Shown here piece after piece: positions 26,093-37,285 of a DNA stretch of 64,000 nt (position 1 is its first letter; every line of letters begins with the position of its first letter). The stretch is from Lysobacter stagni (GTDB taxonomy: Bacteria > Pseudomonadota > Gammaproteobacteria > Xanthomonadales > Xanthomonadaceae), in the NCBI RefSeq assembly GCF_030053425.1, contig NZ_JASGBI010000001.1, positions 285,001-349,000 on the forward strand. Reading direction: 5' to 3'. Both the position numbers and the translations under genes were made by a program. Below the pieces are notes generated by a model, which saw only the letters and a program-made list of their open reading frames with translations, was not told the DNA's origin and ran no database searches.

Positions 26093-27997
<1,905 letters not shown>

Positions 27998-28863: not shown

Positions 28864-29041
28864 GAATCCCCGCACTGAGCCATGCCGCGCACGCGGCAGT
28901 TGAAGTCCATCCGCTGGTTCGTACGCACCCTGCGCGCGGCTCCCCGGCCGCCGCATGCTAATGGTCGGCTCGGTGGTGGGCCACCGGCACGCACGACCGG
29001 ACCGGGACGCAAGCGCCGTTGTCCCGTTACAGATGCAACTG

Positions 29042-29070
29042 TTGACAGCCTCGGAAACCGCGTGTTCTTC
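29042..29070 (+). promoter_or_regulatory. thr operon promoter
   Basis: Consensus -35 TTGACA at 29042-29047, 17-base spacer, then TTCTTC (29065-29070) as a weak -10. A start 7-8 bases later would fall one or two bases before the ATG of the leader peptide. The ilv leader promoter has the same layout. Confidence 0.7.
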
Positions 29071-29078
29071 TCGACCGC

Positions 29079-29207
29079 ATGACGCATCGCAACATGCCTC
29101 CGCAGACCGTACGTACCGCGCCCACCGGCGTGGCGATGACGGCTGTTGCGATTACCACTGGTACCGGTACCACTCGCTTGCGGGTGCGGACGGGCGTGTC
29201 CAGGTGA
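29079..29207 (+). CDS. thrL: thr operon leader peptide
   Basis: A 42-residue peptide whose translation probably senses charged threonyl- and isoleucyl-tRNA. Residues 25-32 are ITTGTGTT, and eleven of the 42 residues are threonine. The ATG follows the promoter almost directly, and no Shine-Dalgarno sequence is visible, so it may be read from a near-leaderless mRNA. The stop at 29207 lies between the first two of four mutually pairing RNA segments, just before thrA. The first codons (Met-Thr-x-Arg-Asn) match those of the ilv leader peptide 5 kb downstream. Too small to be called by length alone; the call rests on codon content and position. Confidence 0.85.
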   Translation: MTHRNMPPQTVRTAPTGVAMTAVAITTGTGTTRLRVRTGVSR

Positions 29208-29257
29208 TCTGAAGGCCACGCCTCCGCACCCCGACCGGGTGCGCAGGCATGGCACCC
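29182..29257 (+). promoter_or_regulatory. thr attenuator: four alternative pairing segments
   Basis: Segment 1 GGGTGCGG (29182-29189, in the leader codons), segment 2 CCGCACCC (29224-29231), segment 3 GGGTGCGC (29237-29244) and segment 4 GCACCC (29252-29257). Segments 1:2, 2:3 and 3:4 can each pair. A ribosome stalled on the Thr run at 29154-29174 would mask segment 1 and favour 2:3. There is no U tract after segment 4, so termination may be weak, Rho-assisted, or replaced by control of the thrA ribosome site. Confidence 0.65.
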
Positions 29258-29290
29258 GGCGGTTGCGGAGCCCACACAGGAGCCCGCCCC

Positions 29291-31819
29291 ATGCCACCCG
29301 CAGACGCTTCACCCCGCCCGGCCCCGTCGTGCCACGTGCACAAGTTCGGCGGCAGCAGCCTGGCCGATGCTTCGTTGTACCGCGCCGCCGCCGCCCTGCT
29401 GCAGGACCCGGCGCGTCCGCGCGTCGTCGTGGTCTCGGCGATGCAGGGCGTTACCGATACGCTCATCACACTGGTCGCACTCGCCCGCGCCGGCGGTGCC
29501 TGGGCCGACGAGTGGAACACGCTGCGCGCGCGCCACCTCGCCGCTGCCGATGCCCTGCAGCGCGACGGCTCGGTGCACGCCGAGCTGGAAGCAGAGTTCG
29601 ACGCACTCGCCGACCGCCTCACCGCATTGGCCGCCGGTGACAGCGACGATTCCACCGATGCGCTTCCCGGACTGGGCGAAGTCTGGTCGTCGCGCCTGAT
29701 GCAGGCCGCATTGGGCGGAAGCGAAGCCGGCTGGCACCGGCTCGACGCGCGCGAGGTGCTGGTGGTGCATGCCGGCGAGATGGGCATGGCGGTCGACTGG
29801 GCCGACAGTCGCGCGCGCCTGGCGGCGTGGCGCGCCGGCCGCGGCGACAGCAATGTCGTGGTCACCGGCTTCGTCGCGCGCGACGCGAAAGGCCACGACA
29901 CCACGCTGGGACGCAACGGCAGCGACTACTCCGCGGCGATCTTCGCCAACCTGTTCGACGCCGACGCCTTGACCATCTGGACCGACGTGGACGGTGTGCT
30001 CTCCGCCGATCCTCGCCTGGTGCCCGAGGCCGTATGCCTGCCGTCGATGTCGTATGCCGAAGCCTGCGAACTGGCGTACTTCGGCGCGAAGGTGCTGCAT
30101 CCGCAGACCATGGCGCCGGTGCAGGAGCGCGGCATCCCGCTGTGGATCCGCAACACGCGGCGCCCGCAACTGCCCGGCACGCTGATCTCGCCGCGCAACG
30201 AACCTGGCGGTGTGCCCGTGAAGGGCCTGAGCCTGGTGCGCGACCTCGCCATCGTCGAGCTGGTCGGCAACGGCATGGTGGGCGTGCCAGGTGCGGCCGA
30301 GCGCATGTTCGGCGCACTGCGCGGCGCGGGCGTGTCGGTGACGATGATCTCGCAGGGTTCGTCCGAACATTCCATCTGCTGCGTGCTGCGCGCCGACCAG
30401 GCCGAGCGCGCGCGCGATGCGGTGGCCGCCGCGTTCGCCGACGCCATCGGCGACGGGCAGGCACAAGGCGTGACACTCACGCAGGACATCGCGGTGCTCG
30501 CGGCGGTGGGCGATGGCATGGTCGGCACACCGGGCGTGGCCGCGCGCCTGCTCGGCGGTCTCGCACAGGCGCGGGTCAACGCACGCGCCATCGCGCAGGG
30601 GGCGGGCGAACGCAACCTTTCCGTCGCCATCGGCGCCGGAGACGCCACGCGCGCACTGCGCGCCGCGCACGCCGCGTTCTGGCTGTCGCCGCAGACGCTG
30701 TCGGTCGGCGTGATCGGACCGGGACAGGTCGGCAGCGCGTTGCTGGTGCAGATGTCGGCCGCCCTGCCCTCCCTGCGCCAGCGCTCCGGCCTGGACCTGC
30801 GTCTGCGCGCCATCGCCAACAGCCGCGCGATGGTGCTGGACGAGCGCGGTGTCGAACCCGCCGACGCCGCCGCACGACTTGGAGGCGGCGCCGCCGAGGC
30901 CGTCGATCTGGACCGCTTCGGCGACCACGTGCGCGGCGAGCATCTGCCGCATGCCCTGATCGTCGACTGCAGCGCCAGCCCGACCGTGGCCGCGCACTAC
31001 CCACGCTGGCTCGCGCGCGGCATCCATGTGGTGACGCCCAACAAACTCGCCGGCAGTGGCCCGTGGGAGCGTTACGCAGCGATCCAGGACGCCAGCCGCC
31101 ACGGCGGCGGTCGTTTCCGCTACGAAGCCACCGTCGGCGCAGGCCTGCCGGTGATGCTCACCCTGCGCAACCTGCTCGACACCGGCGATGAACTGTTCGG
31201 CATCGACGGCATGCTCTCGGGCACACTGGCGTGGCTGTTCAACCGGTTCGACGGAACCGTGCCCTTCTCCCGGCTCGTCCGCGAGGCGCAGGCACTGGGC
31301 TACACCGAACCCGATCCGCGCGACGATCTCTCCGGCCTCGACGTCGCGCGCAAACTGGTGATCCTGGCGCGCGAAGCCGGTCGCGCGCTGTCGCTGGAGG
31401 ATGTGGACGTGGAGAACCTGGTGCCCGAGGCGCTGCGCGCAGTGGATCGCGACACCTTCCTCGCCCGGCTGGAGGAGATGGACGAGCCGATGCTCGCGCG
31501 GTGGCGCGAAGCGTCCGCGCAGGAGAAATCGCTGCGCCATCTCGCACAGCTGGACCGCGATGGCCGTGCCAGTGTCGGCGTCGTCGCGCTGCCGGCCGAA
31601 CACGCCTGCTGCCACACACGCCTGACCGACAACCTCGTCCAGTTCCGCACGCGCCGCTATGCCGACAACCCGCTGGTCGTGCAGGGCCCCGGCGCCGGAC
31701 CCGACGTCACCGCCGCCGGCGTGTTCGGCGACGTGCTCGGCATCGCACAGTCGCTGGGCTCGCCGTTCGGTCTCGCACATCCCTGGGCCGCCGACGCGCG
31801 CGCCGAGGTGATCGCATGA
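29291..31819 (+). CDS. thrA: Bifunctional aspartokinase / homoserine dehydrogenase
   Basis: Catalyses the first (aspartate phosphorylation) and third (aspartate semialdehyde to homoserine) steps towards threonine. The 842-residue protein starts with an aspartokinase domain (KFGGSS at 18-23; [25 protein letters not shown]), then two ACT regulatory repeats (about 310-460), then homoserine dehydrogenase with the [13 protein letters not shown] nucleotide loop near 470, [11 protein letters not shown] and [22 protein letters not shown] lies 9 bases before the ATG at 29291. The stop overlaps the thrB start as ATGA. Threonine feedback through the ACT domains is expected from the family. Confidence 0.97.
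31799..31819 (+). repeat. Junction repeat, copy 1 (thrA/thrB)
   Basis: A 21-base stretch identical to 32743-32763. Its 3' part reads GAGGTGATCGCATGA: an internal Shine-Dalgarno, the start of the next gene and the stop of the current gene. Both upstream proteins consequently end in RAEVIA. Confidence 0.9.
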
Positions 31820-32763
31820 GTGGAGACATCGAACCACAACAGGTTCGCGCGTTTGCGCCCGGCAGCGTCGGCAACATCGGCGTGGGCTTCGACCTGCTGG
31901 GGCATTCCATCGAAGGCGTGCGCGATATCGCGCAGGTGCGCCGCATCGACGAGCCCACGGTGCGCATCCGCGCCATCCGCGGCGACGTGCCCGGCGCGGA
32001 CTCGCTTCCTCTGCAGGCCGAGCGCAACACCGCCGGCCAGGCGCTGATCGCGCTGCGCGCGAAGCTGGGCATCGCGCATGGATTCGAACTGGAACTGGAG
32101 AAAGGCATCCCGCTGGGCTCCGGCCTGGGCGGCTCGGCCGCCTCGTGCGTGGCCGCACTGGTCGCCGCCAACGCGTTGCTCGACACGCCCTTGCCGCGCG
32201 AAGCGTTGTACGAATTCGCACTCGATGGCGAATCGGTGTCCAGCGGCAGCCGCCACGGCGACAACGTCGCACCGATGCTGCTGGGCGGCGTGGTCATGGC
32301 CACCGGTACGCGCATGATCCCGCTGCAGGTGCCCGAATGGCTGCATGCGGTCGTGGTGCATCCGGACCAGGTGCTGGAAACGCGCCGCGCGCGCGCCGTG
32401 CTGGCCGATCCATACCCGCTGCAGGTCATCGTCGAACAGAGCGCGCACCTCGCGCTGTTCCTCACCGGCCTGCAGCGTGGCGACGCACAGTTGCTACGCG
32501 AAGGCCTGCGTGACCTGCTGGTCGAACCGCGCCGCGCACCGCTGATTCCCGGATTCGCTCGGACCCAGCGCGCCGCACTCGACGCCGGAGCGCTGGGAGC
32601 GAGCATCTCCGGCGCCGGTCCCAGTACGTTCGCGTGGTTCGCATCGAAGGCGCAGGCCGAAGCGGCAGCGCCGGCGATGCAGGCGGCCTTCGCGGAAGCG
32701 GGCTACGACTCGCGCGCATACGTTACGCCCGTGGCGGGTCCACGCGCCGAGGTGATCGCATGA
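31816..32763 (+). CDS. thrB: Homoserine kinase
   Basis: Phosphorylates homoserine. A GHMP kinase of 315 residues. The ATP loop [14 protein letters not shown] is near residue 97, the N-terminal strand reads [17 protein letters not shown], and the C-terminal [14 protein letters not shown] is the third GHMP motif. Its ATG is inside the thrA stop (ATGA), and GAGGTGA within the thrA coding end serves as ribosome site, so translation is coupled. It ends at an identical junction sequence shared with thrC. Confidence 0.97.
32743..32763 (+). repeat. Junction repeat, copy 2 (thrB/thrC)
   Basis: Second copy of the 21-base thr operon junction. It again supplies the C-terminus RAEVIA, the ribosome site GAGGTGA and the ATGA overlap that starts thrC. 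Confidence 0.9.
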
Positions 32764-34043
32764 ACTTCACCAGCACGCGCGGCGGCACGCCGTCGACGCG
32801 CATCGATGACGCACTGGTGGCGGGCCTCGCGCCGGACGGCGGGCTGTATGTCCCCGAACGCATTCCGCAAGCGGACCTCGTCGCGGGCGAGACGCTCGCC
32901 GACACGGCGCTGAGCGTGCTCTCGCCCTTCTTCGAGGAGTCCGCACTGCGCGACGTGCTGCCCGCGTTGTGCGCGCATGCGTACGCATTCGATGCGCCAC
33001 TGCGCCCGCTTGCCGGCAACGGCGACCATCTGCTCGAGCTCTTCCACGGTCCGACCGCGGCATTCAAGGATTACGCCGCGCGATTCCTGTCCGAAGCGCT
33101 GGCGCGACTGCGCCCGCAGGACGCGCGGCCGACCACCATCCTGGTCGCCACCTCCGGCGACACCGGCGCGGCCGTGGCGTCCGCATTCCATCGACGCCCC
33201 GGCTTCAACGTGGTGATCCTGTATCCGGAAGGGCGCGTCTCGCCGCGCCAGGCCCACGGCCTGGAATGCTGGGGCGAGAACGTGCGCACCTTCCGCGTGC
33301 AGGGCACGTTCGACGATTGCCAGCGGATGGCCAAGCAGGCGTTGTCGGACGAAGCATTGCGACGCCAGGTCTCGCTCAGCTCGGCCAACAGCATCAGCCT
33401 GGGCCGCCTGTTGCCACAGGTCGCCTATTACGCGCATGCGGCGCTGAATTTCCACGCGGCGCACGCAGAGCCGCTCAACGTCATCGTGCCCACCGGCAAC
33501 CTGGGCAACGCGTGCGCGGCCTTCCTGGCGCGACGCATGGGGCTGCCGGTCGGCGAGCTGGTGCTGGCCTGCAACGCCAACGACGTGCTGCCACGCTATT
33601 TCGCCGGCGAGCCATACCTGCCGCGCCCGACGAAGGCCACGCTCGCCAACGCCATGGATGTCGGCGCGCCGAGCAATTTCGAACGCCTGCGCCATTGGCA
33701 CGACAGTGATGCCCACCTGCGCACATCGCTGTCCGCGCACGCGGTGGACGACGCCACCATCACCGATACCCTCCGCCACGCGCCCGAACGCCACGGCGTG
33801 GTGCCCTGCCCGCACACGGCAACCGGCCTGCACGTGCTGGAAGGTCTGCGCGCCGGCGGCGACATGCGCCCCTGGGCGGTAGTCGCGACCGCGCATCCGG
33901 CGAAGTTCGAGAGCATCGTCGAGCCGCTCGTCAGCCATGCCGTGCCGCCGCCACCTGCGTTGGCGGAAACCCTGTCGTGGCCAGCCTCCGCACAACGACT
34001 CGACGCCGACCCTCAGGCGCTGCGCACGGTGTTGCTGGGCTGA
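32760..34043 (+). CDS. thrC: Threonine synthase
   Basis: PLP enzyme that turns O-phosphohomoserine into threonine. The 427-residue protein begins with the N-terminal threonine synthase block ([29 protein letters not shown]); the PLP lysine is K103 in [14 protein letters not shown], followed by TSGDTGAA and [13 protein letters not shown]. The ATG overlaps the thrB stop. Its product is the substrate of IlvA, encoded in the next transcription unit, so the layout follows metabolic order. Confidence 0.97.
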
Positions 34044-34142
34044 CGCGCGCGCGGCAATACGGGTATTTCCGTTGCAGGCGAAACCATCGCCGGCGCATCG
34101 GACGACGGCGATCACGCTTGCACGCGGTTGCAGAAGAAACTG

Positions 34143-34171
34143 TTGACACGCCCGGACGGCGCATGTTTACC
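34143..34171 (+). promoter_or_regulatory. ilv-leu operon promoter
   Basis: TTGACA at 34143-34148, 17-base spacer and TTTACC at 34166-34171. The ATG of the leader peptide is 37 bases from the first T of the -35 box, exactly as in the thr promoter, and the eight bases after each -10 are nearly alike (TCGACGTC here, TCGACCGC there). The preceding AACTG is also shared. Confidence 0.72.
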
Positions 34172-34179
34172 TCGACGTC

Positions 34180-34368
34180 ATGACGCAGCGCAACAACCAC
34201 CTGCAGGCCGCATCGAACCAGGGCAAACGCCCTGTCGCGATCGCGCGTGCCGCCGCTGACGCCAATGCCCTCGCACTGCTGACCAAGGCCGCGCCCATCG
34301 CGGCCGCGCTCATTCTTGTACTCGTACTTATTACCGGGCTTGCCAGCGCGGGGTACGGGTTCGTGTAA
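34180..34368 (+). CDS. ilvL: ilv-leu operon leader peptide
   Basis: A 62-residue peptide. Residues 44-51 (34309-34332) are LILVLVLI, eight branched-chain residues in a row, the sensor for Leu, Val and Ile tRNA charging. The peptide is longer than classical ilv leaders and its N-terminal part (RNNHLQAASNQGKRP) carries no obvious signal. No Shine-Dalgarno sequence precedes the ATG. A segment just after the sensor codons, GCGCGGGG at 34346-34353, can pair with the 5' arm of the downstream terminator and so act as an antiterminator. The gene order and terminator make this an attenuation leader rather than an independent small membrane protein. Confidence 0.88.
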   Translation: MTQRNNHLQAASNQGKRPVAIARAAADANALALLTKAAPIAAALILVLVLITGLASAGYGFV

Positions 34369-34386
34369 GCAACACCACACATCCCA

Positions 34387-34435
34387 GGTCTGAACCTAGA
34401 CCCCGCGCCCGAAACGGCGCGGGGTTTTTGTTTTT
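34387..34435 (+). terminator. ilv attenuator terminator with competing hairpin
   Basis: The terminator is CCCCGCGCC-CGAAAC-GGCGCGGGG (34401-34424 or so) followed by TTTTTGTTTTT. A second hairpin GGTCT/AGACC (34387-34402) overlaps its 5' arm by two bases. The 5' arm can instead pair with 34346-34353 inside the leader gene. Located 48 bases before ilvD. Confidence 0.9.
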
Positions 34436-34482
34436 CAGGCCTGGTGGGTTCATGGATTTGCCCCATCAGAGGAACGCGGTTC

Positions 34483-36234
34483 GTGAGAAGCAACGCCATC
34501 AAGCAAGGCCCCGCTCGCGCTCCCGCCCGCGCCATGCTGCGCGCCACCGGGCTGGACGACGACGCCATCGCGAAGCCGCTGGTCGCGGTGGTGCACACCT
34601 GGTCCGACGTGTCGCCGTGCAACTTCACGCTGCGCGACCTGGCCCAGCACGTGCGCGCCGGCGTCATGGCCAATGGCGGCACGCCGATCGAGTTCAACAC
34701 CATCGCCGTCACCGACGGCATCGCGATGGGCTCGGACGGCATGCGCGCCTCGCTGGCCTCGCGCGAAACCATCGCCGACTCCATCGAGCTGGCCGTCAGC
34801 GGCCATTGCCTGGACGCGATGGTGCTGCTGGTGGGCTGCGACAAGACCATCCCCGCCGCAGCGATGGCGGCGGCGCGGCTCGATATCCCGACGGTGATCC
34901 TCTACGGCGGCACGATCATGCCCGGCCATTGCCGCAAGGACGGCGCCGACAAGGCGTTGACCGTGCAGGATGTGTTCGAAGCGGTCGGCGCGCATTCGGC
35001 CGGCCGCATCGACGACGCCGAACTCCATCGCATCGAGTCGCACGCCTGCCCGGGCGCGGGTGCTTGCGGCGGCCAGTTCACCGCCAACACGATGGCGATG
35101 GTGCTGACGTTCCTCGGCCTGTCGCCACTGCAACTCAACGACATCCCCGCCATCCACGCCGACAAGCCCGCCGCCGCGCGGGCCTGCGGCGCGCTGGTGA
35201 TGGATCGTCTGCGGAACGGCGGGCCGGGACCGCGCGACCTCCTCTCTCCCACCGCGTTGAGAAACGCGGCGCGCGCGGTCTCGGCCACGGCCGGTTCCAC
35301 CAATGCAGCACTGCACCTGCTGGCGATCGCACACGAAGCGGGCGTGCCGTTCGACCTGGAGGAATTCGAAGCCACCGCGCATACGCCGGTGATCGCCGAC
35401 CTCAAACCCGGCGGCCGTTACACCGCGGCGGAGATGTTCGAGATGGGCGGCGCCGCGCTGGTCGCGCACGAACTGCGCGCGGCCGGGTTGATCGACGACA
35501 TCCCCACGGTCACCGGTCGCTCGTTCTTCGCCGAACTCGATGCCCTGCCTGCAGCGGGCGCGCAGGACGTGGTGCGTCCCGTCGCGCAGCCGTTCAAGCC
35601 GCGCGGGGGTTACTCGATCCTCTACGGCGACCTCGCACCGGAAGGCTGCATCCTCAAGCTCGCCGGCCACGGCATCGAACACTTCGAAGGCACCGCGCGC
35701 GTGTTCGATTCGGAAGAAGCCGCATTCGCCGCGGTGCAGGCGCGCCACGTGCGCGCGGGCGACGTCGTCGTGATCCGTTTCGAAGGCCCCGCGGGCGGCC
35801 CCGGCATGCGCGAGATGCTGGCGGTGACCGCGGCGCTGGTCGGCCAGGGCCTGGGCAACGACGTCGCGCTGATCACTGACGGCCGCTTCAGCGGCGCGAC
35901 CCACGGTTTCATGGTCGGTCACATCTCACCGGAAGCCGCGCGTGGCGGTCCGATCGCGAAGCTTCGCGACGGCGACCGCATTCGCATCGACGTGCGCACG
36001 CGCCGCATCGATGTCGACGCCGACCTGCGCGCGCGCCCAACCGCGCGCATCGCGCCGCGCGTCACCACCGGCGTTCTGGCCAAGTACGCGGCGACGGTGA
36101 GCTCGGCTTCGCGCGGCGCGGTCACCGCGCCGGGGCCGCTCGACGCGGCGCAGGCGAAATCCCGCGACATCCCGTTGCACGTCGTCGCCGAGCCCGTCAC
36201 GGCCGACGAAGCGAAGGATCTGTTCCTGGTCTGA
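34483..36234 (+). CDS. ilvD: Dihydroxy-acid dehydratase
   Basis: Iron-sulfur dehydratase making the 2-keto acids of isoleucine and valine. The 583-residue protein has the cluster cysteines in [14 protein letters not shown] and [17 protein letters not shown]. The GTG at 34483 is preferred: AGAGGAAC lies about nine bases upstream and the product begins [10 protein letters not shown], the family start. First structural gene after the attenuator, 38 bases before ilvC. Confidence 0.96.
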
Positions 36235-36271: not shown

Positions 36272-37285
36272 ATGAGCAACCAGCAGCAAACCCGCATCGC
36301 CATCGTCGGCTACGGCAGCCAGGGCCGCGCGCATGCGCTCAACCTTCGCGACTCCGGCTTCGACGTGACCATCGGACTGCGCCCCGGCGGCCCCACCGAG
36401 ATCAAGGCCAAGGCCGATGGCTTCACCGTGAAGTCGCCCGCAGAGGCCGTGAAGGGCGCCGAGCTCGTCGCCGTGCTCACGCCCGACATGGTCCAGCCGC
36501 AGCTCTACGGCGAGGTCATCGAGCCAAACATCGCGCAGGGCGCCTGCCTGCTGTTCGCACACGGCTTCAACGTGCACTACGGCCAGATCACGCCGCGCGA
36601 CGACCTCGACGTCGTCCTCGTCGCACCGAAGGGCCCTGGCGCGCTGGTGCGCCGCGAATACGAGATCGGCCGCGGCGTGCCGTCGGTGTATGCGGTGCAT
36701 CAGGACCGCAGCGGCAACGCCGAGGCGCTGGCGCTGACCTATTGCGCGGGCATCGGCGGCGCGCGCCAGAACGCCATCAAGACCACGTTCAAGGAAGAAA
36801 CCGAGACCGACCTGTTCGGCGAGCAGGCCGTGCTCTGCGGCGGCGCGACCAAACTGGTGCAGGCCGGCTGGGAAACGCTGGTCGAAGCCGGCTACCAGCC
36901 GGAGGTCGCGTACTACGAGTGCCTGCACGAACTGAAGCTGATCGTCGACCTGTTCTACGAAGGCGGCATCACCCGCATGCACGAGTTCATCAGCGAGACC
37001 GCGCAGTACGGCGCGCTCACGCGCGGCACCTACGTGGTCGACGACAACACGCGCGCGCAGATGAAGAAGGTGCTGACGGAGATCCAGGACGGCACGTTCG
37101 CGCGCCAGTGGATCGCCGAGTACGCCGCCGGCAACGCCAACTACAAGGCGCTGAAGCAGGCCGACCTGGACCACCCCATCGAGGCCGTCGGCAAGAAGCT
37201 GCGCGCCAACATGAAGTGGCTGTCGACCGCACCGCAGGCGGCACCGGCCGCCGGAAAGCGCGAAGCGCAGACCGAGGCCGCGTGA
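36272..37285 (+). CDS. ilvC: Ketol-acid reductoisomerase (class I)
   Basis: NADPH-dependent isomeroreductase of the valine/isoleucine route. The 337-residue short (class I) form has the Rossmann loop [17 protein letters not shown] at 13-29, metal-binding [13 protein letters not shown] and the substrate residues of HGFNVHYG and APKGPG. The stop overlaps the ilvG start as TGATG, indicating coupled translation. A Pro/Ala-rich tail after residue 315 is an extension beyond the conserved core. Confidence 0.97.

Follow-up and report, generated by a model that had tools for sequence, protein, structure and literature searches.

Matching promoter and start regions at the thr and ilv leader genes of Lysobacter stagni suggest sensor peptides read from near-leaderless transcripts

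Why should a threonine and a branched-chain amino acid operon begin in nearly the same way? In the 64,000-nucleotide stretch of the Lysobacter stagni genome analyzed here (the window; contig NZ_JASGBI010000001.1, positions 285,001 to 349,000), a thrABC operon and an ilv operon are each preceded by a leader peptide gene carrying codons for the amino acids concerned, and the two leaders share their promoter region and their first codons. Our reading, to which we assign a probability of roughly 0.72, is that both operons are under ribosome-mediated attenuation via sensor peptides whose transcript is leaderless or nearly so. Unless noted otherwise, all features described below lie on the forward (+) strand.

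The match between the two leaders is real and beyond chance. The -35 hexamer TTGACA occupies 29042..29047 at the thr leader and 34143..34148 at the ilv leader, an assignment based on sequence, genome count and relatives. It closes an 11-mer, AACTGTTGACA (29037-29047 and 34138-34148), of which the 3,926,621-base genome has exactly two copies, both at these leaders, and a reversed control none. From the first base of TTGACA to the ATG (29079 and 34180), the distance is 37 nucleotides (nt) in both cases. The bases directly before the ATG are TCGACCGC and TCGACGTC, one per leader, and the peptides start with MTHRN (thr) and MTQRN (ilv). These four likenesses, pointed out in the initial annotation, were all confirmed in the sequence. 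Over 74 aligned positions (30 around the -35 and 44 around the ATG) the leaders are 76% identical, compared to 27% for shuffles. A genome search with GTTNCNNNNGNAACTGTTGACA (22 positions, up to three mismatches) returned perfect copies only at the two leaders; the other 13 matches all have three mismatches, and the reversed control contains nine of that kind.

Relatives were collected by searching 149 genomes of the family for ThrA (a match in 149/149, many of them partial) and for IlvC (a match in 107). Including the window, 62 thr and 59 ilv loci were analyzed. For two thr loci (G133 and G009) no aspartokinase start motif could be located; without them, 60 remained. One ilv locus on a cut contig (G004) gave no leader, so that 58 of 59 were used. 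The closest ThrA matches come from Lysobacter, Vulcaniibacterium and Lysobacteraceae; of 13 loci, 10 show 71-86% identity and the remaining three are partial matches at 33-38%. A leader had to start with ATG, have TTGAC 31-41 nt upstream and contain a run of sensor codons. The 54 thr leaders thus found split into an ilv-like form (n = 16) and another form (n = 38).

Given that search range, the spacing evidence lies in the narrow spread and the pass rate. From the -35 start to the ATG, 58 of 59 ilv loci measure 35-38 nt (35 in 2, 36 in 24, 37 in 29 and 38 in 3), and 53 of 60 thr loci measure 36-39 nt (36 in 25, 37 in 16, 38 in 10 and 39 in 2). Only one other TTGAC[AG] was seen within 200 nt upstream of the leader ATGs, at -180 of an ilv leader. 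Conservation above background is confined to the promoter block and the start, with positions -60 to -44 all at 0.38 bit or less. A Shine-Dalgarno core of four or more nt precedes 3 of 112 leaders (2/58 ilv, 1/54 thr), as against 6.1% of shuffled leaders and 90 of 117 control starts (37/57 for ilvC, 53/60 for thrA), the controls being scored, in their favor, at the best of nearby start codons. The near-leaderless start put forward in the initial annotation gains support from this comparison: a locked distance from -35 to ATG, together with Shine-Dalgarno cores as rare as in shuffles, suggests that the sensor peptides are read from a (near-)leaderless mRNA.

Where RNA synthesis would begin depends on the phase of the -10 element. 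The conserved frame in relatives is TTGACA-N15-TG-n-TYnnCT with an 18-nt spacer, the TG sometimes lying 14 nt after TTGACA. The initial annotation had read TTCTTC and TTTACC behind a 17-nt spacer, a phase that relatives do not conserve; it was right in calling the -10 poor, and it is poor in the same way in all relatives scored. In the window, the extended -10 consists of TG (29063-29064), one base and TCTTCT (29066-29071) at thr (29063..29071), and of TG (34164-34165), one base and TTACCT (34167-34172) at ilv (34164..34172). The extended TG is present in 72 of 74 leaders (56/58 ilv and 16/16 ilv-like thr). In the hexamers of the 72 scored leaders, the first position is T in 72, the fifth is C in 68 and the sixth is T in 70. 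The hexamer ends 6-9 nt before the ATG in 72/72, and 7 nt before it at both leaders of the window. An RNA start 7 or 8 nt past the hexamer would thus fall at or just before the A of the ATG, so that the promoter is predicted to be placed for a start at the AUG. The other 38 thr leaders have a different -10, several with TATCAC, TATTGC or TTTAAA just 5' of the ATG. A promoter of the heat-shock type (TTGAA and CCCCATnT) was considered for CCCATG-like stretches and set aside, as the -35 reads TTGACA and neither the C nor the A is constant. By eye, the spacer between the ilv -35 and -10 forms an inverted repeat in several leaders of the same genus (L061, L064 and L065; ACATGCCCGTGCCGGGCATGT in G129), of which the window's ilv spacer (34145-34165) is an imperfect version.

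With its CTCG end, this promoter element is nearly private to the two leaders. Across the 149 genomes, TTGACA-N15-TGnTYnnCTCG has 45 matches in 37 genomes (reversed control: 4), and 44 of these belong, by position, to a thr or an ilv leader, the one exception being in G129; a leader ORF (open reading frame) was present in all 30 fetched loci that were opened. The upstream box, GnAACTGTTGACA-N13-CnTG, has 29 matches in 20 genomes, 29/29 at thr or ilv leaders (control: 0). TTGAC-N27-33-ATGACGCAnCGC has 56 matches in 42 genomes (control: 2), 53 of them at thr or ilv leaders, and the other three (G129, G010, G131) look like chance. Order-wide, TTGACA-N13-15-TG-N11-14-ATGnnGCAnCGC gave 83 matches in 76 of 398 genomes (control: 0); the 30 loci opened comprise 23 ilv and 7 thr leaders, and four matches in other families of the order are all ilv leaders. 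In the class beyond this family, none of 271 genomes had a match. Conservation of the box in relatives, on which the proposal had been staked beforehand, is hence borne out by both the family-wide and the order-wide searches.

The shared element extends into the coding region. The pattern G-CAn-CGC appears as GCATCGC at the start of the thr leader (29084..29090) and as GCAGCGC at that of the ilv leader (34185..34191), and its nucleotide-level test was made on the ilv leaders. There, codon 2 varies (Thr, Leu, Ser, Pro, Lys and others) and nevertheless ends in G in 54 of 58, versus 24.4 expected from codon usage; counted by genus and codon, which handles relatedness to genus level, it does so in 29 of 33 versus 15.5 expected. 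When codon 4 encodes Arg, it is CGC in 51 of 51 cases, compared to a usage of 66%. Conservation of the first codons (nnG-CAn-CGC) is at the nucleotide level. Two side observations touch on this start. TTGACGCCGCGCA[CG]CA recurs about once per genome throughout the family (G116:C31:14325, G090:C17:508027 and G062:C4:119276, among the matches listed), often tens of kilobases from the ilv leader and probably within a conserved gene. In thr leaders of genera g16, g29 and g33 (L039-L043 and L052), the -35 region, TTGACGCnnCGCAnCA, is similar to ATGACGCAnCGCAnCA, the start of the ilv sensor.

The attenuator itself is best seen at ilv. The leader peptide gene (34180..34368, 62 codons, with its ATG at the predicted transcript start and no Shine-Dalgarno) contains the regulatory codons LILVLVLI (34309..34332), followed within the ORF by a putative antiterminator segment, GCGCGGGGT (34346..34354). 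An intrinsic terminator with a U-run lies at 34398..34435 (hairpin 34398-34427), and its 5' arm can pair with 34346-34354. The terminator scan of the window yields two terminator-like sites and shuffles yield 2.0, so that the scan alone proves nothing; the same intrinsic terminator, however, lies 3' of the leader in 58 of 58 ilv leaders. Complementarity between the ORF tail and the terminator 5' arm is 9 nt in the window and reaches at least 7 nt in 44 of 58 leaders, versus 3.2% of shuffles. The paired segments also co-vary between groups, GGCGCGGG going with CGCGCC and GGTGCGGG with CGCACC. This is what an antiterminator would need, and antiterminator and terminator would be mutually exclusive. 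A short ORF with a run of product codons, itself a search criterion, is present in 58 of 59 ilv and 54 of 60 thr loci. Downstream follow an ORF of the ilvD type (34444..36234), the first structural gene, whose start is not settled, and one of the ilvC type (36272..37285), second in the operon and also seen in relatives; both names are our presumption and fit the sequences. Against the Rfam family Thr_leader (RF00506), the ilv leader scores 19.3 bits (cut-off 55; E 0.25).

The thr leader is built alike up to its output. Its gene (29079..29207, 42 codons, likewise without a Shine-Dalgarno and with the ATG at the predicted transcript start) carries the regulatory codons ITTGTGTT (29151..29174). 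Pairing analysis delimits segment 1 inside the ORF (29182..29198), which is complementary to segment 2 (29217..29231); segment 2 can pair with segment 1 or with segment 3 (29237..29243), after which no U-run terminator follows. The 1:2 complementarity is at least 7 nt long in 50 of 54 leaders, versus 18% of shuffles, and the later hairpin has a median of 8 base pairs, versus 5 in shuffles. The gene behind it, which we take to be thrA (aspartokinase-homoserine dehydrogenase type; 29291..31819), is conserved in relatives and fits the sequence; it has the Shine-Dalgarno AGGAG (29278..29282), such a core being the one kept at 53 of 60 thrA starts. Just 5' of it, GCGGAG (29265-29270) is a potential pairing partner of segment 2, a hint of control at the level of translation. 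The thr leader has no match to RF00506 at E up to 1, and Rfam at its cut-off returned no leader and no riboswitch in the whole window.

Taken together, these elements suggest the following course. A dedicated promoter (TTGACA, 15 nt, TG-n and TYnnCT without A at the second position) would start the RNA at the sensor AUG or within about 2 nt of it, and an assembled ribosome would then have to begin on a bare 5' end. At ilv, a ribosome waiting at the Leu, Ile and Val codons would free GGCGCGGG at the end of the sensor ORF for the 5' arm of the terminator, and transcription would continue; a ribosome that reads through would cover GGCGCGGG, and the terminator would form. At thr, waiting at the Thr and Ile codons would switch between 1:2 and 2:3 pairing. 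With an output other than an intrinsic terminator, we propose that this switch acts on thrA translation or through Rho.

Several results weigh against such leaderless attenuation. The -35 is TTGACA as for sigma-70, which is partly a search criterion, and A at the second position of the -10, which sigma-70 calls for, is found in 0 of 72 leaders. The -10 is so poor that a generic sigma-70 scan requiring this A found no promoter in 28900-34600 (0.2 expected by chance). One thr leader has a spacing of 32 nt and no leader was found at 6 of 60 thr and 1 of 59 ilv loci; the spacing result is moreover conditional on the ATG-only search with TTGAC at 31-41 nt, and the scoring of the Shine-Dalgarno controls favored those controls. 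The scan placed an intrinsic terminator in 0 of 54 thr leaders, which leaves classical attenuation no more than a possibility for thr. Whole-leader folds are modest compared to shuffles (z-scores of -1.57 for thr and -2.07 for ilv).

The absent -10 A also lends itself to another explanation, in which a single regulator of thr and ilv uses the shared block chiefly as its operator, the RNA starts upstream of or inside the leader, and the sensor is not leaderless. A pseudopalindrome, GTTnC-N4-GnAAC, lies 5' of the -35 at both thr (29026..29039) and ilv (34127..34140), a likeness that the initial annotation had not listed. Among thr leaders it is confined to the ilv-like form (15 of 16, versus 0 of 38 of the other form), and 12 of 58 ilv leaders have it as well. 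Its presence at ilv goes with the thr form of the same genome: it is found at 11 of 15 ilv leaders when thr is of the ilv-like form, versus 1 of 43 otherwise (Fisher p 7e-8, a value that ignores relatedness). Such a pattern is what one would expect from a front end captured jointly, or from a single regulator shared, in those lineages. The conserved start is compatible with a dyad, TGnnGCnnnGCnnCA, which an operator could also use. Nonetheless, the distance from -35 to ATG is locked with or without the palindrome, which is missing from 46 of 58 ilv leaders. Nothing promoter-like is conserved farther upstream, and if the RNA began 5' of the block, the sensor would have no Shine-Dalgarno. We therefore consider the operator explanation unlikely. 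As to the dyad, a search for WTGACGCnnCGCAnCA was not specific, with at least 133 of 149 genomes matched and many matches in the reversed control, and it is kept here only as a bold reading.

How the two front ends came to be alike is a question of history. The initial annotation proposed duplication of one regulatory cassette with later divergence of the sensor codons; this proposal is supported only in part, with no support for one simple duplication. Recent duplication or conversion between the neighboring operons, with only the sensor codons diverging, would agree with the 76% identity in the window, where the own ilv leader ranks first of 58, and with the gene order: wherever thr is ilv-like and both loci were fetched, thrA lies 5' of ilv in the same orientation. 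However, that gene order is also found with the other thr form. On a ThrA tree of 37 proteins, moreover, the ilv-like form (16 rows) needs four label changes, at least three of them forced by well-supported branches, and the closeness of a thr leader to the ilv leader of its own genome ranges from rank 1 to rank 26 of 58, so that in most genomes the own ilv leader is not the closest. Recent duplication is thus improbable, and ongoing gene conversion was set aside as thr leaders are not specially close to their own ilv leaders. The other thr promoter (TTGACGCnnCGCA..TATTGC) is common, by eye, to g16 and g33/g29, which bracket the clade of the window, and the ilv-like form is therefore probably derived there. 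The ilv promoter and start are old and order-wide, with the ilv-like thr form scattered over the ThrA tree. Repeated capture of an ilv-type front end by thr and old sharing followed by losses both fit. Finally, that two unrelated leaders converged by chance on a strong-promoter box can hardly be credited: part of the match is expected, TTGACA being the sigma-70 -35 consensus, but 44 of 45 matches of the promoter element (reversed control: 4) and 29 of 29 of the upstream box (control: 0) are these leaders, and chance was set aside given this genome-wide specificity.

Attenuation by leaderless sensors can be extended to a bolder joint reading, which we offer tentatively, as a possibility rather than an expectation. 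The shared region may be an initiation module of the Xanthomonadales, composed of a promoter selected to lack the -11 A, perhaps factor-dependent, and a 5' RNA element, A(+1)UG-nnG-CAn-CGC, that loads 70S ribosomes onto a bare 5' end (or a dyad, TGnnGCnnnGCnnCA, that lies across the start site as an operator). Such a module would be old in ilv and captured more than once by the neighboring thr leader, mostly together with the upstream palindrome, thereby linking threonine and branched-chain control.

In E. coli, the sensor genes of the thrL/thrABC and ilv attenuators have leaders and ribosome sites. Operons, kind of sensor codons and the ilv terminator are the same as here; unlike the Lysobacter pair, they are not known to share a promoter box. 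A comparative survey by Vitreschak et al. from 2004 is said to predict thr and branched-chain attenuators in Proteobacteria. That a normal ribosome site is the rule in attenuation leaders, as the initial annotation put it, is too general a statement, given the leaderless examples published from Streptomyces, Corynebacterium and Sinorhizobium. According to the accessible part of the report, the 5' end of the trpL attenuator RNA of Sinorhizobium meliloti coincides with the ATG of the sensor ORF, giving a leaderless peptide as proposed here; that system differs in concerning tryptophan, an alphaproteobacterium and a single leader (PMC7298713). The available text on Streptomyces lividans describes leaderless sensors for leuL, trpL, ilvL, metL and thrL, some without a clear terminator like our thr leader; this is an actinobacterium, and its thrL precedes thrS rather than thrABC (PMC8079986). 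The ilvBNC attenuator of Corynebacterium, again from Actinobacteria, has a leaderless sensor peptide for branched-chain amino acids as here, in the portion of the account at hand (PMC11857589). A promoter and start module shared between leaders appears in neither of the latter two accounts, as far as their accessible text goes (PMC8079986, PMC11857589). With leaderless attenuator sensors known elsewhere, the principle is not new. Open-licence papers yielded no account of leaderless leaders in this family, which is weak evidence of absence. As far as the open-licence literature tells, four things are new: that such sensors occur in this gammaproteobacterial order, that they come as a pair, that their private promoter lacks the -11 A, and that a nucleotide-level element marks the start.

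If transcription starts at the AUGs, two central amino acid operons of a gammaproteobacterial order would sense starvation via leaderless translation. Leaderless translation responds differently from normal initiation, e.g., to the balance of initiation factors or to stress, and the sensing of amino acids would in that case carry information on the state of initiation as well. Short, confined to two genes per genome and retained in many genera, the module may offer a small natural model in which to study the DNA and RNA requirements of a leaderless start, as well as the way in which a neighboring operon captures a regulatory front end.

Elsewhere in the window, the ORF at 26093-27970 on the minus strand is presumably thiC, judging from its sequence. 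At hisG, the filter used revealed no His-rich short ORF in six loci of the genus, which is not a full test. A candidate trp leader was noticed 5' of a TrpE-type gene in the genome of the window (L180, at about C1:1588879) and in L177 and L178: in these three of seven loci, a short ORF with WRWR has TACAGT 6-7 nt 5' of its ATG. TACAGT lies just 5' of an ATG in five of the seven trp loci, occurring alone in L179 and L182. This candidate has another promoter, without the TTGACA box, and yet also looks near-leaderless.

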